55,069 nt of DNA, taken from a virus. Numbering within the stretch: position 1 is the stretch's first letter; each line of letters starts with the position of its first letter. Under the pieces are notes generated by a model, which had not been told where the DNA came from, did not search any database, and saw only the letters and a program-made list of their open reading frames with translations. This document shows, one piece after another, positions 6,223 through 48,167 of this stretch. The stretch is taken from positions 1 to 55,069 of IMG/VR virus record IMGVR_UViG_3300024999_002465, one strand, 5' to 3'. Position numbers and translations under genes: made by a program.

Positions 6223-7053
6223 ATGAGTAAGGCAGATATAGTTTTTATTACAATGTGCGAAGATATACTTAAAAATGGTTTTTCTTCTGAAAATGAACAG
6301 GTAAGACCTAAATGGGAAGATGGTAGTTCAGCCCATACTATTAAAAAATTTGCGGTCATAAATAGATATAATCTTGCAGAAGAGTTCCCAATTATGACAT
6401 TAAGACCAACAAATTTAAAATCTACGATTGATGAATTATTATGGATTTGGCAAAAGAAATCTAACAATATTAAGGATTTAAACAGTAATATTTGGGATAG
6501 TTGGACAGATGAAAATGGAACTATAGGTAAGGCATATGGATATCAATTAGGGGTTAAACATCAATACAGAGAAGGCAAATTTGATCAAGTAGATAGAGTA
6601 TTGTATGACTTAAAAAATAATCCATACAGCAGAAGAATTATTACCAATATGTATACCCATGAAAATTTACATGAAATGGGTTTATATCCCTGTGCATGGA
6701 GTATGACTTTCAATGTTGTTGGCAACAAACTCAATGCAATATTAAATCAACGATCACAAGACATCTTAGTAGCAAATAATTGGAATGTATGCCAATATGC
6801 AATTCTTGTACATATGTTTGCTCAAGTAAGCAATTTAGTCGTTGGAGAATTGGTACATGTAATTGCTGATGCTCATATTTATGATAGGCATATTCCATTG
6901 GTTAAAGAATTGATTCAACGACCTCAATATCCATCACCTAAATTAATTATTAATCCAGATATTAAAAACTTTTATGACTTTAAAGTTGAAGATTTTGTAT
7001 TGGAAAACTATCAAAGCAATCCACAAATTAAAAATATCCCTGTTGCTGTTTAA
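6223..7053 (+). CDS. thyA: Thymidylate synthase
   Basis: 276 aa, the usual length for ThyA. It methylates dUMP to dTMP using methylene-tetrahydrofolate. Seen: the catalytic Cys in YPCAWSMTFNV, the phosphate-binding QRSQDI, the NWNVCQYA folate-side helix and the HIYDRHIP dUMP-binding segment. It stands 9 bases before DHFR, which regenerates the folate it consumes. A good AGAGAGGAAG site precedes ATG. Confidence 0.96.
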   Translation: MSKADIVFITMCEDILKNGFSSENEQVRPKWEDGSSAHTIKKFAVINRYNLAEEFPIMTLRPTNLKSTIDELLWIWQKKSNNIKDLNSNIWDSWTDENGTIGKAYGYQLGVKHQYREGKFDQVDRVLYDLKNNPYSRRIITNMYTHENLHEMGLYPCAWSMTFNVVGNKLNAILNQRSQDILVANNWNVCQYAILVHMFAQVSNLVVGELVHVIADAHIYDRHIPLVKELIQRPQYPSPKLIINPDIKNFYDFKVEDFVLENYQSNPQIKNIPVAV

Positions 7054-7062
7054 GGAGGATAT

Positions 7063-7569
7063 ATGAAAATTATTGTTGCGGTTGATTCAAATTGGGGAAT
7101 TGGGCATAGAGGAAATTTGTTGTTTTGGATTCCAGAAGATATGAAATTATTCAAACAAATGACATTGGCTAAAGTTGTTGTCATGGGAAGAGAAACATTT
7201 GAATCATTGCCAAATAAAGAACCTCTAAAGAGTAGAATCAATATTGTGCTAAGTAAGAATGAAAATTTCATCAATGAGAATGTGAATATTTGTCGATCTT
7301 TAGAGGAACTATTTAGTGAGTTAGAAAAGTATGATTCAGATGATATATTTGTTATAGGTGGAGAATCAATATATTTTCAACTTTTAGATTTTTGTGATGA
7401 AGCATATGTAACTAAAATTGAAAAAGAATGTGTTGATGTAGATAAATATTTTATTGATTTAGACGAATATGAACTATGGAGAATAGAATCTATTAGCGAG
7501 AAGAAAAACTTTGAAGACGTTAAATATAGATTTGCAAAATATATTAAAAACAATATTAAGGAGGGATGA
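7063..7569 (+). CDS. folA: Dihydrofolate reductase
   Basis: 168 aa, standard length. Reduces dihydrofolate with NADPH. Seen: AVDSNWGIGHRGNLLFWIPEDM (substrate loop with Trp and catalytic acidic residue), VVMGRETFESLP (NADPH-binding), INIVLSKN, and VIGGESIYFQLL. GGAGG lies just upstream of ATG. It is paired with thymidylate synthase as in many phages. Confidence 0.95.
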   Translation: MKIIVAVDSNWGIGHRGNLLFWIPEDMKLFKQMTLAKVVVMGRETFESLPNKEPLKSRINIVLSKNENFINENVNICRSLEELFSELEKYDSDDIFVIGGESIYFQLLDFCDEAYVTKIEKECVDVDKYFIDLDEYELWRIESISEKKNFEDVKYRFAKYIKNNIKEG

Positions 7570-7572
7570 TAA

Positions 7573-7611
7573 TTGGAAAATAAAGTTGTGGTAATTATTA
7601 ATAAACATTAA
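7573..7611 (+). pseudogene. 12-codon remnant of a gene start before the endonuclease
   Basis: A perfect AAGGAGG precedes TTG, which opens MENKVVVIINKH then stops. It resembles the first residues of the kinase downstream (VNKLVILVGFS), so it may be the old 5' end left behind when the endonuclease gene inserted. Inference only. Confidence 0.3.
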
Positions 7612-7629
7612 AATAAAAGGAGTATTAAT

Positions 7630-8811
7630 TTGACAAAAATTATCGACAAAGACAAGTTGGAATATTACATCAATCAAGACCTATCATTAAAAAATATAGC
7701 ACATGTCTTTAATGTAAGTTCTACATGCATAAGTAACAATTGTATTAAATATAATTTAAAAACTAAAAATATGAGAAATGAAGAAATAATAGATTTGACA
7801 GGGAAAATGTTTGGCAGATTAACAGTGGTAAGACACAATGGTAGAAACAATTTAAATAGAAAGCAATGCCTGTGTCGATGTAATTGCAAAAATAAAACTG
7901 AAATTAACGTGCAAACTAGCTCGTTACTAAATGGGAATACAAAAAGTTGTGGTTGTATATCATCTGAGATCATTATTAAAAGAAACAAAGATAATGTAAA
8001 AGAATTTACTGAAGAAGAAGTATATTTCATTATTCAGTCTTATGTAGACGGAAATAATATTAAATTTATAGAAAATAAATATGATATTAGTGAATATTTT
8101 ATCAAAAATATTTTACATAATGAAAATATTCCAATCAGAGAAAAAATAATACCATTTAACGAAAATTATTTTTATGTAATTGATACTGGAAATAAGGCGT
8201 ATTGGTTAGGGTTTTTGTATGCAGACGGATGTGTAAGTGAAAAGGCATTGGAATTAGGATTGCAGGAAAGAGATAAAAACCATATTGAAAAATTTCTTGA
8301 AGAATTAAACGCAGATGTAGAAATTAAAGATCGAATAACAAGTACAGAGGGTAAAAAATATAAAAGCAATCGTGTTTTATTAAATAGTAAAATATTAGTA
8401 AGTGATTTAATTGATAAAGGTTGTTTTATGAATAAAAGTTCTACAATAAGATTTCCAGACGAGGATATTTTGCCAAAAGATTTACAGAATCATTTTATAA
8501 GAGGTTACTTCGATGGTGATGGTTGTATAGGGTTTTACAAGAATAAAATTGCTATGATTGATATTATTAGCAATGAACCTTTTTTATTAGAAATGCAAAA
8601 AATATTAGTTGAACAATGTGGATTAAATTATGTAAAATTAAGAAAACATTATACATCAACAAAAGTAAAATATTTGAAATATGGAGGAGCGCATAATGTA
8701 TTTAAAATATATAAATACCTATACAAAGATGCAGATGTATTTTTAACTAGAAAATATAATAAATTTCAATTATTTTTAGAATTCTACAAGAGTAAATATA
8801 ATATTTCTTAA
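7630..8811 (+). CDS. LAGLIDADG-family homing endonuclease
   Basis: 393 aa from TTG, AAAGGAG upstream. The order is: N-terminal helix-turn-helix (LSLKNIAHVFNVSSTCISNN); a zinc-type segment (LTGKMFGRLTVV, CLCRCNCKNK, TKSCGCI) like that of the HNH endonuclease at 1494; a second HTH-like stretch; then two LAGLIDADG motifs, AYWLGFLYADGC (about residue 194) and FIRGYFDGDGCI (about 294). It cuts a long DNA site to spread itself. It sits between DHFR and kinase genes as a free-standing insert. Confidence 0.88.
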   Translation: MTKIIDKDKLEYYINQDLSLKNIAHVFNVSSTCISNNCIKYNLKTKNMRNEEIIDLTGKMFGRLTVVRHNGRNNLNRKQCLCRCNCKNKTEINVQTSSLLNGNTKSCGCISSEIIIKRNKDNVKEFTEEEVYFIIQSYVDGNNIKFIENKYDISEYFIKNILHNENIPIREKIIPFNENYFYVIDTGNKAYWLGFLYADGCVSEKALELGLQERDKNHIEKFLEELNADVEIKDRITSTEGKKYKSNRVLLNSKILVSDLIDKGCFMNKSSTIRFPDEDILPKDLQNHFIRGYFDGDGCIGFYKNKIAMIDIISNEPFLLEMQKILVEQCGLNYVKLRKHYTSTKVKYLKYGGAHNVFKIYKYLYKDADVFLTRKYNKFQLFLEFYKSKYNIS

Positions 8812-20433: not shown

Positions 20434-20491
20434 CAAATAATATTATAGAGAGCAATACAAATTAATGTATTGCTCTCTATAATATTATTTG
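20434..20491. terminator. 26-bp perfect inverted repeat, bidirectional terminator
   Basis: Arms 20434-20459 and 20466-20491 are exact complements around a 6-base loop. The right arm overlaps the stop codon of the convergent endonuclease. Longer than usual terminators. Confidence 0.75.
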
Positions 20492-21984
20492 TTGATTTCT
20501 AAATATTCATCATAATACATCCATACCAATTTAGTTCCATCTGGTAATTTTCCTGCCGATTTTTGTCCGCTATTATTTCTACAACACGCGGATATGCTTG
20601 TCGCAGGTATATCGTATCTTTCACTAGCTTCTTTTTGTGAATTAAACACATCTCCTGTTGTTAAACATATTATTTGATTATTTCTTTTTCCGTAAACACA
20701 CCATCCCATCTCTGATCCTTTTCTAAGGTATCTTCTAATTGTAGAATTGCTTATTTTTAAAATTTCTTTTATAGTTTCAATATTATCAATTCCACTATTC
20801 CATAAATTACAAACCAATTTTATATCCCCAGAGTAAGCATACTCTGAACATTTTAACCAATCAATGTCGTTCTCTTTAAAGTTTAATATTGTAGGAAGTG
20901 TGCTTGATAATATTTTCTTCTTTATCCATTCCATATCAGACTTCCTACAATCTAAAATTATATAATTTTCAATACCATTTTCCTTTGCTAATTGCTCTTT
21001 TAATTTATCATTTCCTTGTGTTTCACTTAAAACCATATTCCAACTACTCTTAATTTCCTTATAATGTTGCAACCCGTGTGTCTCTATAATTCCTACAGAC
21101 GGTATGTAGAAATCATATTTATAATCTTTGCACCACTCTAATGTAGTTTTTGATAATTGTGTTATAAAATCAATTGTATTCAATTGTTCTAAAACACTAA
21201 ATAGAAATCTTTCTGGATATGTCCCAGAAGAACATTTTGGGCATCCAAATCCAAATCTTCTAAGGTTTGTGATTATAATTTCTTTTTCAAATCCACAAGT
21301 TATGCAAATTGCAGAAACACTTAACCCAGAACCAGATGAATATTTTAATGCATCCTCTTTATTTACCAAATATTTTACCAAATGTGGGTGAGTGACTGCT
21401 AATACATTTGTATCACATTGGATACAAACAACACTTCCTTTTTGACCAGCAACGAATCCGCTGATACGCTTTTGCTCAGATTTATGATTTTTATGATTTA
21501 GACATTTAAACCAATAACCCACCCCATTTAATCCACTAGAGCTACAACTAACATCTTTAGGGCTTAATTTGTTCCCACTCTTATCAATATTCAATTCATA
21601 ATCCCATCGAGATATTATCGCACTAGCTTCTTCACTAGTTAAGTTTATATAACACCATTCGTAAAAAGAAACCCATTTTTTATATCCATTTTGAGCGCAT
21701 TTTTGACAATAATACTCTCCATTTTCTCGTACATATCTTTTGTAATCCTGCCATTTTATGCCTATCATTATAACTCCACAACCATCACATTGAGTATCAA
21801 CTAATACATCGGAACCATCGGACAAATCTTCTACTTTAACTAATATATTTTTATTGCAATCTACAACCATAATATTTTTTCTTTGTGAATGACACTTTTC
21901 AGGTAATGAATATCCTTTATCTTTATACCAAGTTATAACTCTTGAGCTTAACCCAACTTCAACTTCTTTTGTAATCAATCCCAT
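20485..21984 (-). CDS. EDxHD-type (Vsr-like) homing endonuclease with NUMOD-type C-terminus
   Basis: 499 aa from ATG 21984. The N-terminal half has several zinc knuckles (CDGCG, YCQKCA, CIQCD, CITCG, CPKCSSG). A nuclease core follows: YPERFLFSVLEQL, KYDFYIPSVGIIETHGLQHY, then NDKLKEQLAKENGIENYIILDC. This arrangement fits the Vsr-related endonucleases of phages. The C-terminus has a helix-turn-helix (ETIKEILKISNSTIRRYLRKG) and a NUMOD1-like repeat (FNSQKEASERYDIPATSISACCRN). A free-standing selfish gene. Confidence 0.75.
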   Translation of the reverse strand: MGLITKEVEVGLSSRVITWYKDKGYSLPEKCHSQRKNIMVVDCNKNILVKVEDLSDGSDVLVDTQCDGCGVIMIGIKWQDYKRYVRENGEYYCQKCAQNGYKKWVSFYEWCYINLTSEEASAIISRWDYELNIDKSGNKLSPKDVSCSSSGLNGVGYWFKCLNHKNHKSEQKRISGFVAGQKGSVVCIQCDTNVLAVTHPHLVKYLVNKEDALKYSSGSGLSVSAICITCGFEKEIIITNLRRFGFGCPKCSSGTYPERFLFSVLEQLNTIDFITQLSKTTLEWCKDYKYDFYIPSVGIIETHGLQHYKEIKSSWNMVLSETQGNDKLKEQLAKENGIENYIILDCRKSDMEWIKKKILSSTLPTILNFKENDIDWLKCSEYAYSGDIKLVCNLWNSGIDNIETIKEILKISNSTIRRYLRKGSEMGWCVYGKRNNQIICLTTGDVFNSQKEASERYDIPATSISACCRNNSGQKSAGKLPDGTKLVWMYYDEYLEINK

Positions 21985-22125
21985 TATCAATCATTCCTCT
22001 TTCCTTTATAAAGACAAGTAAAACGAGAAATTCCAATTATAAATACCAAATAAAAATTTCTCATTTTACTTTCATTAAATTTACAATCAACAAAACTAAA
22101 ACCTTCACAAACCAAACCACAATGA

Positions 22126-41000: not shown

Positions 41001-43408
41001 AAACCGTGTTAAATGGTATCTTGAGCCAATTGTAAGTCCTATTTGCTGTTTCTGTTCACTGGAAAGTGTCTTGAATTTAACCGCCAATTCTCCCCAGATT
41101 TGATTGACATCTCTTACATTTCCTGAAATATCTTTTATTGCAATTCCTACTCCAGCTAATGCTTTCTCTGAATCTGTCGAAAATGTTCGAGAAATAGTAG
41201 TTTTTAGCGAATTTCCAATGACATTTCCACTCTCTTTTGTGGCGGTTTGGATTGCTGTGGTATAGCCAATGACATCATCGAGCGTTGCCCCATAAATCTG
41301 CGCCGATTCTCCAGCTTTCGACAAACTTTGCGCTAGTCCCTGACTTGTAACTGCGAAATTATTATCACATTCTGTTACTTTCCCTTTATTTAAAGGTACT
41401 GACCACTATATTGTTATAATGGCGAATAGAAATTTCTTTCTATTTCTCTATGATTTCCATAGAAGTTCAGACTATCCCTTATGGTTTAATTTATAAAACC
41501 ACTTCTATTATAGTCGTTGAACGTCCCTCTGTTCTAGAGGTTTCGATGCGTTTGATTACCCAATACTCAATGATATTACCATACCGAGTCCGTTACTACT
41601 CGCCACCATCATATCCCTACAACGGCTTGGTTATTGAGTCTCTAAGGATTTCCCCGCAATTTAAGAATTTTTACTAATACGTCACCATATTAGGAGGCTA
41701 ATTTTCTAACCTCATTGATTTTATTTACTATTGAAACAGAGTCTTCTGCAACAACATTAAATTGTGCCATAGTCGCAGTTAAATACTGAGCCATTTCAGC
41801 AGTTTTTAAACCTGTTACATTCGCTCCCAAAAGTGCCGTATTCGCCATATCAGTTGCTTGAGCTGCCTCAAAACCTTGTTTTCCAAATTCAACAACTGCC
41901 AATTGCGTCTCAGTTATAGTTCTTCCATATGCATTGGCAGATTTTGCAAGGCTGTTCATTAGAACACCATAATCTGTATTAGATGACATTACTTTGGACA
42001 TCTCGACCAATTGTGTATTTATAGAAATAATTGCCTGTGGAATTTGCTGAAGAACATTTAATAATCCGTACATTCCTCCCATGACAACAGACCACACCAT
42101 AGCCTTGGTTGCGGCTGTACTCATGGCCTCTCCCAAACCCCAACTTCTAGTCATTCCATCTCGTAAAGCTTCATTAAATTGATACATTTGACCAGTTGCC
42201 CTATCAATATAAACGCCTAAATTTAAATGTTGACTTCCATTTCTTAATTGCTGTGTTACTCTTATGTATTGTTCTGTTTGTTGAATGTTAGAAGCAATTA
42301 ATCTATGACCTTCCAACAAAGAAGTATTATAATATTGTTGTGCATGGGTAGCATTTGTTATTGCAGGATTTAAACGTGTAAATTGATCATATTGAGTAAA
42401 GTTAAAACCACGAGAATCATTTTGTCCTTGCCTTACAGTTTCATAAAATCTTCTGATTCTATTTTCAAGATTTTGTAACTGTGTTAATTGCTCTGGTCTT
42501 ATACTAATGCCTATTTCATTATTAGCCTGAAATTGCCTAATAATATTTCTATATCTCTCTAATTGATGTTCTAATACTCTAGAACTTTCAGGTGTTAAAG
42601 TATTACTTATACTGTTTCCTAAACCTAAAGAAGATTGCATTCTAGTATTTAACAATCTAGACTGTTGTTGCAAAGACCTTTCAGTTTGATTGAATAATCC
42701 TGCATACAATTGTTGTTGTCTTTGAATGTTTCTTTCAGCAGTCTCTTGTTGCTTTAATTGTTCTTTAGCTAACCTTTCTTCTGCTTTTTTTACGTTGTCA
42801 ATTTCTCTAGCCAATTGTGTCAATATCGTAATTTGATTTCTAATCTCTTGAACATTTGACTTAGATATATTTGACATATCCAATTCTTTTATTTTTTGAG
42901 ATAACTGCTGAACTTCAGTTGCCAATGCAGGATTTAATTTAAATGGTTCTAATGACTGTTGCATTTTGCTTTTAGAAGCATTTAAAGCATCTACTGCTTC
43001 CCGTTGCTTTTTATAATTTGTGGCTTCTTCATTAATGCTTCTTGCCCCAGTTTTAGCATTAATAATTTCAGTAACTTTGATTAATTTACCAAAAGCATTT
43101 TCCAATTCTTTAACTTCTTTTATCTCAGTTAATATCCCATTATGTTTAGTTTCAGAATTAGATACTTTATTAACATTTTCCATGGTTCTTCCTAATGTTT
43201 GCATAGAAGAATTAAGATTGTTAACCTGATTAATAGAAGGAGCAATTGCTTTACTTATTTGATCTAATCCTTTTAATGATGCAGTATCAAAAGCAATATT
43301 TAATTTTTTAGTATCAACATATTCTTGTAACTTTTTAATAGCATTGTCAATATTGTGCTGACTGCTTGCATAATTAACCTGTATGACTAATCCTAAATTA
43401 TCAGCCAA
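38097..43408 (-). CDS. Tape-measure protein, two exons separated by a group I intron
   Basis: Exons 43408..41709 and 41367..38097 join to 1,656 aa; exon 1 ends within codon GT|T, which the exon 2 T completes. The join restores VNKINEV-DNNFAVTSQGLAQSL..., the core of phage tape-measure proteins. Then follow LKTTISRTF, TGYT-type TAIQTATKESGNVIGNSL and long helices. A membrane-like stretch (LVVTMGGLLLKTLSLIPAL) and a C-terminal region that ends ARTTREDY complete it. It sets tail length. TTG start with GAGGTGAAATTAA. Without splicing the upstream part ends at a stop just inside the intron. Confidence 0.9.
41368..41708 (-). ncRNA. Group I intron, 341 nt, no ORF
   Basis: On the - strand the 5' exon GAGGT pairs with guide GCCTC (U.G at the splice site), P1 extended by UA/UA. 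P2 CTAATA/TATTAG. P7 halves GACTAT and ATAGTC are exact complements. P8 GTGGTTT/AAACCAT; P9 CTATG/CATAG. The last intron base is G. The core GCGGGGAAATCC and the CGACTATA and GGGATAGTCTGAAC blocks are typical of phage group I introns. Confidence 0.88.
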
Positions 43409-43509: not shown

Positions 43510-43977
43510 ATGGAAATATTCTTTATAATTGGTTCTATCTTATTCTTTTATTGGTTATTCCTCATATATCGAATACAAAAAGGCATAGTTAAATCAATAT
43601 CGTTTAAACATATTGAAGGCATAAATAGATTAGCAAAAGGAATAGATGTAAAAATATCCTTTAATAAGGAAACAATTAAGATTGATGATATTACTATACC
43701 GATTTCTAAAATTGATAGATTAGAAACAATTTCTTCTAAGCAATTAGTAGATAAAAATGGAAATGTTGTTGGTGGTGCGATCTTGGGTGGATTATTAGCT
43801 GGTGGCGTAGGAGCTATTGTGGGTGGACTTAGTGGAGTTGGAAACGGAAAAGTAACTCAATTGGTTCACTATTTAACTATATTTTTCAAAGACAATAGTT
43901 CCGCTGTATTTTCATTTAATGGTTATAGTAACAAATTTGGATTAAAAAATGCTTTTAAACGTATTAATATGATGTAA
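43510..43977 (+). CDS. Moron-like membrane protein
   Basis: 155 aa. N-terminal membrane span (FFIIGSILFFYWLFLIYRI), a beta-rich stretch and a Gly-rich hydrophobic zipper (GGAILGGLLAGGVGAIVGGLSGVG). Its own promoter and terminator, and opposite orientation inside the tail operon, are the marks of a moron, a prophage gene expressed in the lysogen. It may change the host envelope or exclude other phages. Confidence 0.65.
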   Translation: MEIFFIIGSILFFYWLFLIYRIQKGIVKSISFKHIEGINRLAKGIDVKISFNKETIKIDDITIPISKIDRLETISSKQLVDKNGNVVGGAILGGLLAGGVGAIVGGLSGVGNGKVTQLVHYLTIFFKDNSSAVFSFNGYSNKFGLKNAFKRINMM

Positions 43978-44046: not shown

Positions 44047-45114
44047 CTATATATTTATAACTTTCTTTTCTCTAACTTGATGAGTTTTTCCAAAATCAAA
44101 TTTAAAAGTACCTAAACTGTTTATAATAGTATTGGTATCAATATTAAAATTTATCCAACTATGATTATCGGATAGGTAATTCTTGGCATATCCAATTATA
44201 TCAATTATTTTATCATCTTGTGGTATATAATCTAATTTTGATATTATTCTTATCTGCCTCCAACCTAAAGACTTTAAAACATAATTCCTTACTATTTCTT
44301 TTTGATTAAACTCTTTCTCAGTGAGTTGTCCTCTTACAACCCTTAAATCATGGCCACTCCCATCATACTCTATGTAAATTTTTTCATCTAAGAATACAAT
44401 ATCTAAAGATAAATTACCTATCGGATAATTTAATTCTCCATTTATTAGACTACAAATATATCTTTGGGGATATGAACTAACGCCTGTTTTATTTTTATAT
44501 AAACTCATTTTTATTTTTTCTTTAATGATTGGGGATTTCAATACATTATCATATCCGTATCGTTTAAGATTTGTTACTTTTATTTTGTTTTTAACATCTT
44601 CTAACTGAAAAACACATTCCACACCATATCTATCCATGCAAGTTTGTTTAGATTTTTCTTGCACTTCTTTAGATTGAAATGTATATTCTACTCCCAATCT
44701 ATCTAAATTAGTTTGTTTAACTTTATTCATTATAGTTTCACTTTTACATGGACTATCTACTCCATATCTTTCAAGATTAGTTTGTTTAGATTTTTCTTGC
44801 ACAGAATCTAATTGCATTGGATGTATGACTCCATGCACTATTAAATTACATTCTTTTACTTTTATTTGTGTACATTGTTTACAACAATCTTTTTCAACGA
44901 TTTTTCTTCCATCTAGATATTTCTTATATGATTTTGATATCACTTTATCACAATAATCACATTGAACATCAACTTTTGTTTTTGTATTAGGGTATAAATC
45001 CTCAACCTTAACTTCAAATTCATCATTAACTTTAGTAAAAATATATCCTAATTCTTTATAATGGGTACAAGTTGAACGATTCCATTTAATTAATACTGTT
45101 TTTGTTAACAACAT
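44047..45114 (-). CDS. Vsr-like homing endonuclease with DUF7487-type repeats
   Basis: 355 aa. Two zinc knuckles (CDYCDKV, CCKQC), then four repeats of K-x-T-x-x-x-R-(Y/L)-G-(V/Y), e.g. QTNLERYGVDSPCKS, then nuclease core SYPQRYICSLINGEL, LSLDIVFLDEKIYIEYDGSGHD and RNYVLKSLGWRQIRI. These match phage Vsr-like homing endonucleases. Close upstream of the intron-bearing tape measure, so it may be the nuclease that moves the intron. Confidence 0.8.
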   Translation of the reverse strand: MLLTKTVLIKWNRSTCTHYKELGYIFTKVNDEFEVKVEDLYPNTKTKVDVQCDYCDKVISKSYKKYLDGRKIVEKDCCKQCTQIKVKECNLIVHGVIHPMQLDSVQEKSKQTNLERYGVDSPCKSETIMNKVKQTNLDRLGVEYTFQSKEVQEKSKQTCMDRYGVECVFQLEDVKNKIKVTNLKRYGYDNVLKSPIIKEKIKMSLYKNKTGVSSYPQRYICSLINGELNYPIGNLSLDIVFLDEKIYIEYDGSGHDLRVVRGQLTEKEFNQKEIVRNYVLKSLGWRQIRIISKLDYIPQDDKIIDIIGYAKNYLSDNHSWINFNIDTNTIINSLGTFKFDFGKTHQVREKKVINI

Positions 45115-46236: not shown

Positions 46237-48093
46237 TTATTTATTAGATAGATTTAATTCTTTAATACGCTGTTCTCTTTGGATATCTAATATTATATTA
46301 TCTTTTAATTGAAATCCAACTCTTTTTTGATATTCATGTTGACATTTTTGGTCACAGAAAAATCTTTTATTGGTAATGTATTTATCTTGAATAACCGATA
46401 TTTCTTCATTGCAGTTATTACAATAAACTATAAACCTTTTTATTTGTGCCTTACCACTACATTCTGTACTACAATAGTGGTGTTCACTTGTATTATATTT
46501 GCCTGTTAATTGTTCTGTTTCAATCCCACAGTATTCACAGTTAAATATAGTCCATTTATCCAACTGTTTATGACTCATTTTTTCTTTTGTTGATGTATCA
46601 ATTATTTTATGTAATTCCTCAATATCCCATGCCATATAAGGCTTAAAAACAACATCGTTTAATTCTAATACGTTTTCGCTATTCAGTTTATAATTAAATG
46701 AGTGGTAGTTATCTAATTTACCATTGTTTTTAACATATAGATTAATCAATTGCTCACACAATAAGGTATTATTATTTATTTCTTCTTCCCATAAATATAA
46801 TACTTCAACATTATGATTATTTCTTAAATATGAATGCTTAATCTTATCCATTCTTATTCTATTAACCTGACGTTCGTATATTATTTGTGGATATTTTCTA
46901 TGGTCGCAATGATAAAATGTTCCCATATTTTCAATCATTAATCCACTATCAATCAGATAATTATCTAATGCTACTTTACCGAAAACCTTTTCTGATTTAT
47001 TGTTTATATTTAACTTACTAAGTAAATCGTTAATAATTATTTGTATACCAGTTACCCTTTGATTAAAAACATCATCTTCTAGCATTTTTACTGCTCTAAT
47101 CGCTGCATTATTTTTAAAATCTTCTGTCTGTGAATATTCTTTTGCAAACCAATCTTGCCTACATTTATCAGAACAAAATCTCCTTCCATTCTCAATTTGA
47201 TATGGTTTTGCTTGATGTTCTAACCCACACCATTCACATACTACTGTTCTATCTTCAATAGACCATTCGTGATTATACCCATTGGCATTTTCACCTGATA
47301 AATTTATAGATTGCCATTTGCCTTGGCATTGAATTGAACACATTATTTGAGGACTTGATTTAAGACATTCAAATTCTTCTTTACATATTTCACATTTTCT
47401 AAACTCCCAATTCTGACTATGTTTATATTCTAATTCACACTCTAAAGAGCAAAAACTATTATCTGATCTTTCTGATTGTTGATGTCTTGTATATTCTTTA
47501 CTACAATTTGTGCATACTTTATTCTCATATTTAGGAGTTACATAATAATAATATTCGCTTTTACATTCTTGACAACAAAATTTTTGATCTGGAACATTGT
47601 TTATAATGTTAAATTCTTTATGACAATTAATACAATCTCTTTGACCAATTATTATTTTTGGAATAGGATTTTCTTTCGTCCAATTATTGTGACATTCTTT
47701 GGTGCAAAAATGAATCTCGCTCCTAATCATACGAGCAGGAGTAGTTTCATAATTATTTTTACAACTTTCGCAATTTAATATTACAGGAAGTTTAGTTTGT
47801 GCATTTAATTTTAGAATTTCTTTTATTCTAAAACAAACATCATATAAAGATTTATTTATATTATTTGAAATATCATTAATATTACCTTTTTTATTTAATA
47901 AATAGTCAATTATATTTATATCATCTTCTAAGTTCCATTCTGCATCGTCATATTTAATTGCTCTAGTTTCAAACCAAACACATACTTTACATTTTGTAGC
48001 ATAATGTCCACTACCCTTTGAATGAAACTCGCCAACTGATTTCTCTTTACCACAAATCTTACAAACCTTTGTCTTATTTTCTTCCACTAACAT
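46237..48093 (-). CDS. Zinc-rich Vsr-like homing endonuclease
   Basis: 618 aa from ATG 48093. Ten or more CxxC/CxxxC zinc knuckles line both ends (CKICGKEK, CNCHK-type NCHKEFN, CTNCSKEY, CEWCGLEH, CEYCGIET, CNNCNEE). The middle holds the nuclease core: LDNYLIDSGLMIENMGTFYHCDHRKYP, then NRIRMDKIKHSYLRNNHNVEVLYLWEEEI. That order (IE-x-x-G, H, D, K, E) is the same family as 20485 and 44047. Very large for this family. Confidence 0.8.
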   Translation of the reverse strand: MLVEENKTKVCKICGKEKSVGEFHSKGSGHYATKCKVCVWFETRAIKYDDAEWNLEDDINIIDYLLNKKGNINDISNNINKSLYDVCFRIKEILKLNAQTKLPVILNCESCKNNYETTPARMIRSEIHFCTKECHNNWTKENPIPKIIIGQRDCINCHKEFNIINNVPDQKFCCQECKSEYYYYVTPKYENKVCTNCSKEYTRHQQSERSDNSFCSLECELEYKHSQNWEFRKCEICKEEFECLKSSPQIMCSIQCQGKWQSINLSGENANGYNHEWSIEDRTVVCEWCGLEHQAKPYQIENGRRFCSDKCRQDWFAKEYSQTEDFKNNAAIRAVKMLEDDVFNQRVTGIQIIINDLLSKLNINNKSEKVFGKVALDNYLIDSGLMIENMGTFYHCDHRKYPQIIYERQVNRIRMDKIKHSYLRNNHNVEVLYLWEEEINNNTLLCEQLINLYVKNNGKLDNYHSFNYKLNSENVLELNDVVFKPYMAWDIEELHKIIDTSTKEKMSHKQLDKWTIFNCEYCGIETEQLTGKYNTSEHHYCSTECSGKAQIKRFIVYCNNCNEEISVIQDKYITNKRFFCDQKCQHEYQKRVGFQLKDNIILDIQREQRIKELNLSNK

Positions 48094-48167
48094 TAACAAC
48101 ACACTCCTTCTAATTAATTATTTTTTCTTCCTACCAACCACACACTCCAAACCAAAACATTATAAAA

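Follow-up and report, generated by a model that had tools for sequence, protein, structure and literature searches.

The window analysed here, the whole 55,069-nt stretch of IMG/VR virus record IMGVR_UViG_3300024999_002465, contains on its minus strand a tape-measure gene interrupted by a group I intron of 341 nt that lacks an ORF and whose position (41708–41368) could be defined to the exact base. The 5' exon (43408–41709) comprises codons 1-566 plus two bases of codon 567 and matches phrog_4211 and PhageMin_Tail, and the 3' exon (41367–38097), assigned by the spliced frame and the profile match, runs up to the stop codon. The boundaries read exon GAGGU / intron UAGAAA ... AACAGAAUG (terminal G, 41368) / exon UGAUAAU and the joined site reads GAGGTTGATAAT. 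The length of the insertion is not a multiple of 3 and stops close all three of its sense frames, the longest open stretch being of 33 codons, so that it has no homing-endonuclease gene of its own. Once 43408–41709 and 41367–38097 are joined, a single ORF of 1,656 amino acids with one terminal stop is obtained, and along this protein the match to phrog_4211, a PHROG tape-measure profile, is unbroken (18–744, E 1.8e-107); the unjoined halves each match their own separate part of the same profile. The junction falls in the motif INEV|DNNFAV, the most conserved one of the gene, which shows no variation among the five tape measures that were aligned. A small unknown gene (43510-43977) is encoded on the plus strand, opposite to the tape-measure gene and immediately upstream of it; its position is kept in the related sequences L002, L003, L004, L007 and L008.

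Searched with Infernal, the intron matched RF00028 over the full model with 53.2 bits (E 1.2e-12), above the gathering score of 50. It was absent from the results of a whole-window Rfam scan at the gathering threshold, most likely because of the Infernal speed filters and not because the intron is lacking; a 2.4-kb scan of L008 also overlooked an intron that another search scored with 59 bits, probably due to the same filters. The fold of the minus strand had a z-score of −5.4, and none of 100 shuffles was equally good. The earlier note, made from the letters of the window, is thus upheld in its description of an ORF-less intron at 41368-41708 that lacks an endonuclease and whose removal restores the conserved motif in a product of 1,656 codons, and every element that it had listed (a 5-bp guide with U·G at the splice site, the P7 halves, P8, P9 and the terminal G) was recovered.

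From its 5' end the intron has an internal guide GCCUC (41698–41694) that pairs with the exon end GAGGU to form P1, with the U·G at the splice site; in relatives where the exon reads GAGAU the guide is GUCUC, indicating that guide and exon covary. It is followed by a P2 hairpin (41693–41674) common to other tape-measure introns and by a catalytic core of the type found in nrdD, gyrase-like, DNA-polymerase and PhiPA3 introns, of which the P3-P8 segment 41664–41469 was tested. The strands of P3 lie at 41668–41664 and 41506–41502, those of P7, the guanosine-binding helix, at 41515–41510 (GACUAU) and 41475–41470 (AUAGUC), and the fold places the P8 hairpin at 41501–41482. The 3' domain (41468–41368) contains P9, P9.1, P9.2 and the pattern GUCAGUA..GAAAGUAACAG with the terminal G, and is common to tape-measure introns with other core types. 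A P10 of 4 bp is possible between the 3'-exon UGAU and the AUUA just before the guide. This helix has 4-6 bp in the window-type introns and is absent at that register in L043 and L041; the 3'-site pairing is therefore not uniform, which counts against the explanation that we favour below.

Covariation was tested on P3, P4, P5, P5a, P6 and P7 in a set of viral loci containing the motif RGACGTTCAACGACTATAA, with their cores aligned to that of the window (the loop region of P8 does not align across introns; L057, extracted at wrong coordinates in alignment A3, adds little). Of the core cells 98.3% were paired, 20 of the 30 pairs changed on both sides and double-sided compensatory changes appeared in 124 cells, compared to 31.6 in shuffles. 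The covariation score was 0.528 versus 0.07-0.13 for slid versions, and pairing fell to 35–47% when the partners were slid by 1–3 columns. All five pairs of P3, which is half of the pseudoknot, varied on both sides; both strands of P7 were invariant and hence uninformative by themselves on covariation. Altogether the covariance score, the P3/P7 pseudoknot with P4, P5 and P6, the U·G of P1 and the terminal G identify the insertion as a member of RF00028.

As the earlier note had proposed, intron-less tape-measure genes could be aligned across the site. The exact empty site was found in the close relative L002 and in about 20 others, and a 55-residue query across the joint was contiguous in more than 20 records; the site is present in L002-L006 and reads AATGAAGT|TGATAATAAT in L002 and AATGAGGT|TGACAATAAT in L003. 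L002 is devoid of the intron even though it is 93.7% identical to the window over 600 nt downstream. Six further records (L007, L008 and the distant relatives L040-L043) have an intron inserted at precisely this nucleotide, including carriers with only 29-33% tape-measure identity. Here a second core type is found in L040, L042 and L043, and a third one in L041, where the intron at the exact window site is 1,250 nt long (L041:2774-4023) and includes a nuclease ORF that resembles Vsr weakly (E 9e-4) and the mobile-intron protein 3R3P very weakly.

Actually, this site is one of about ten positions at which this gene family carries group I introns within some 260 residues (codons 436 to 690), the insertions of the relatives being located at codons about 436, 528, 562, 567, 569, 592, 613, 618, 683 and 690. 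Many of them match RF00028 and the remainder were assigned by shared cores and ends. Three insertions each were found in L008, L042, L043 and L057. In L008 (6106-8433) the three group I introns interrupt one tape-measure gene and the middle one (6808-8000) encodes a nuclease of Vsr/EDxHD-like type; in L007 (7583-8000) this ORF survives only as a shortened remnant. A group II intron (L052:3345-4003; RF02004 104 bits, RF00029 62 bits) was detected in the same motif in a prophage-like region of Saccharibacillus deserti, at about codon 571, within a few codons of the group I site. In L040 the intron at site 683 ends with a short stretch that is duplicated exactly and includes an N (6395-6482), probably an assembly artefact.

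The window intron was divided into three segments, each of which we compared with other introns by means of z-scores from letter shuffles, which are not a phylogenetic test. With L007 and L008 excluded, the 5' part (P1–P2) resembled other tape-measure introns (highest z 10.9), as did the P9 region at the 3' end (highest z 14.5), and both parts gave z below 1 against nrdD or PhiPA3 introns. The P3–P8 core behaved in the opposite way: its z was 27.7–31.9 for nrdD and PhiPA3 introns, and tape-measure introns stayed at 3.8 or below apart from L057 site 613 (20.6) and one from Vibrio phage ICP1 M4 (15.8). In a control with 54 other viral loci containing the core motif, whose hosts include nrdD-, gyrase-like and polymerase-like proteins as judged by eye from the flanking translations, the ends remained unmatched (5' z at most 3.3, 3' at most 2.3). 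The window intron therefore looks like a mosaic by these comparisons, with ends like those of tape-measure introns and a core like that of nrdD, gyrase-like and polymerase introns, and recombination would be the simplest reading of the pattern. The P5 extension at 41565-41639 is like that of nrdD-type introns, and the same-site introns of L007 and L008 have the shorter P5 type, as in L057 site 613; judging from these sequences, the P5 arm, too, may have been swapped. We considered whether the end GUCAGUA..GAAAGUAACAG is special to tape-measure genes and rejected it because at least 119 stretches of viral contigs contain the same pattern; among the loci listed for it none had an adjacent window core and there was one weak match within 1.5 kb. 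A more specific proposal is that the site has stayed fixed and the ribozyme has been exchanged, three unrelated cores lying between related ends (P1-P2, P9) and the window representing a swap to the nrdD-type core. We would give it an even chance.

Evidence of movement came from the comparison of introns and exons among the relatives. L007 and L008 share 76.5–78.6% identity in their exons, 92.7% in the intron at the window site and about 94% in the one at site 528; for L004 and L008, the intron at site 436 is 95.2% identical and the exons 72–78%. Since intron identity exceeds exon identity in both comparisons, these introns have moved. Patchy presence among close relatives together with transfer into a fixed site characterises a mobile intron, and patchy presence combined with the higher identity of introns points to gain by homologous replacement.

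The introns at codons 528 and 567 could have moved jointly in a single conversion tract driven by the nuclease of the 528 intron, given that this ORF is intact in L008, where the 528 intron lies 117 nt upstream, and shortened in L007 and that both introns are about 93-94% identical between the two; yet the 117-nt exon in between is only 78.6% identical, no higher than background, so that no shared tract is visible, and the window itself has no 528 intron, making a joint transfer unlikely. Occupation of the site in relatives with 29-33% tape-measure identity implies that it is either old or recurrent, and an old intron inherited purely vertically with repeated loss would account for it, but the three unrelated core types at the same site and the L007 and L008 introns, far more alike than their exons, make this quite improbable.

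The earlier note had also suggested that a nuclease encoded at 44047 moves the intron in trans. In collaborative homing, known from the cyanophage psbA/F-CphI pair and from T3-like phages (PMC3984707, PMC10448857), an ORF-less phage intron has a free-standing nuclease gene nearby, as is the case here: the gene at 45114–44047 (minus strand) belongs to a homing-endonuclease family (phrog_12131, DUF7487), is situated 2.3 kb from the intron and would cut the intron-less tape-measure site and spread together with the intron. In L006 and L011/L036, relatives of this nuclease do precede tape-measure genes. However, L006, whose copy of the nuclease is 48% identical, and L036 are intron-less, and among the intron carriers no copy of this type was found beside the tape-measure gene in L007 and L008, the sole full-length relative in L008 being some 15 kb upstream, and none in L040, L042 and L043. 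Moreover, the gene has a clean empty site of its own, as the gap between its flanking genes is 53-77 nt in L002, L003, L004 and L008 versus 1,267 nt in the window; this suggests that the gene homes at the locus where it resides. Unlike in the known systems, nuclease and intron are thus unlinked across relatives, the link between the two is unsupported, and we regard their collaboration as very doubtful. A search for close relatives of this nuclease in viral contigs found none and phmmer against PDB gave nothing meaningful. Four more homing-endonuclease-like genes are found in the 55-kb contig, at 1533-2228 and 7630-8811 (plus strand) and 20485-21990 and 46237-48102 (minus strand), with HNH, LAGLIDADG_3 and phrog_1271/phrog_9084 as their types. 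Finally, that a frameshift or insertion broke the gene, giving two separate proteins or a gap bypassed in translation, is scarcely credible, for a gene caller would indeed list two ORFs but the group I covariance match, the covarying core and guide and the precise empty site in relatives all contradict it.

It is very probable, as far as sequence comparison goes, that this is a self-splicing group I intron, apparently mosaic in structure, and probably gained by replacement and moved by a nuclease of the Vsr/EDxHD type. After transcription of the tail genes, the guide GCCUC would be brought opposite the exon end GAGGU in P1, the 5' junction would be attacked by a guanosine bound at P7 and the freed exon would then attack after the terminal G, steps that are predicted from the conserved anatomy. 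In-frame joining of the exons would yield the 1,656-aa tape-measure protein, and the insertion would therefore be close to neutral for the phage. The intron was probably gained via homologous replacement between co-infecting phages, not inherited throughout the clade. Itself lacking an ORF, it would belong to a pool of tape-measure introns from which its ends (P1-P2 and the P9 domain) would come, the core being contributed by a different type of phage intron. Its movement was probably mediated by intron-borne Vsr/EDxHD-type endonucleases at the same or a nearby site, as in L041; given the nuclease of that same-site intron, a lost or in-trans nuclease of this type is the better guess.

Introns in tape-measure genes are not new, since that of ICP1 has four exons and three introns, demonstrated by RNA-seq and RT-PCR, and the gene has been termed frequently interrupted (PMC10448857). 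ICP1 is similar in having several introns per tape-measure gene with ends that are kept while the nuclease content varies (PMC10448857), and an intron segment of ICP1 M4, as seen above, matches the window core. It differs in that its tape measure has no homology to that of the window recognisable by tblastn, that some of its introns carry HNH ORFs and that its splicing is proven, that of the window being predicted from sequence. A closer case is Geobacillus virus E3, whose homologous gene is interrupted within the same NEVDNNFAV motif by a group I intron (RF00028 48.7 bits), inserted 4 nt downstream of the window site and with another core and 3' end. The E3 record annotates N- and C-terminal fragments with no intron feature, and its gp42 and gp43 are the exons of one tape-measure gene split by this intron (L012:3402-3703, KP144388.1 33492-33793); we found no paper on it in the open-access literature. 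Introns in Enterocloster and Enterococcus phage nrdD and in PhiPA3 have a P3-P8 core like the window's (best z 28-74), and window-type cores also occur in introns of gyrase-like, polymerase and other genes in viral contigs, all with P1-P2 and P9 regions unlike those of the window. The novelty raised in the earlier note thus holds for the exact insertion site, of which we found no report in the open-access literature, and not for its surroundings, given the known introns of the ICP1 tape measure and the nearby one of E3. Nor was any report of core swap or mosaic exchange found in the same literature.

With the splice junctions placed exactly, the annotation is corrected for an essential tail gene that automatic callers split. 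Beyond this, the tape-measure introns, with about ten sites, three cores at one of them and a group II intron alongside, form a natural test series which could be used to study the choice of conserved sites, the spread of ORF-less introns and the modular recombination of cores versus exon-recognition ends. If the exchange of cores is true, these introns would keep their address and swap their engine through recombination.
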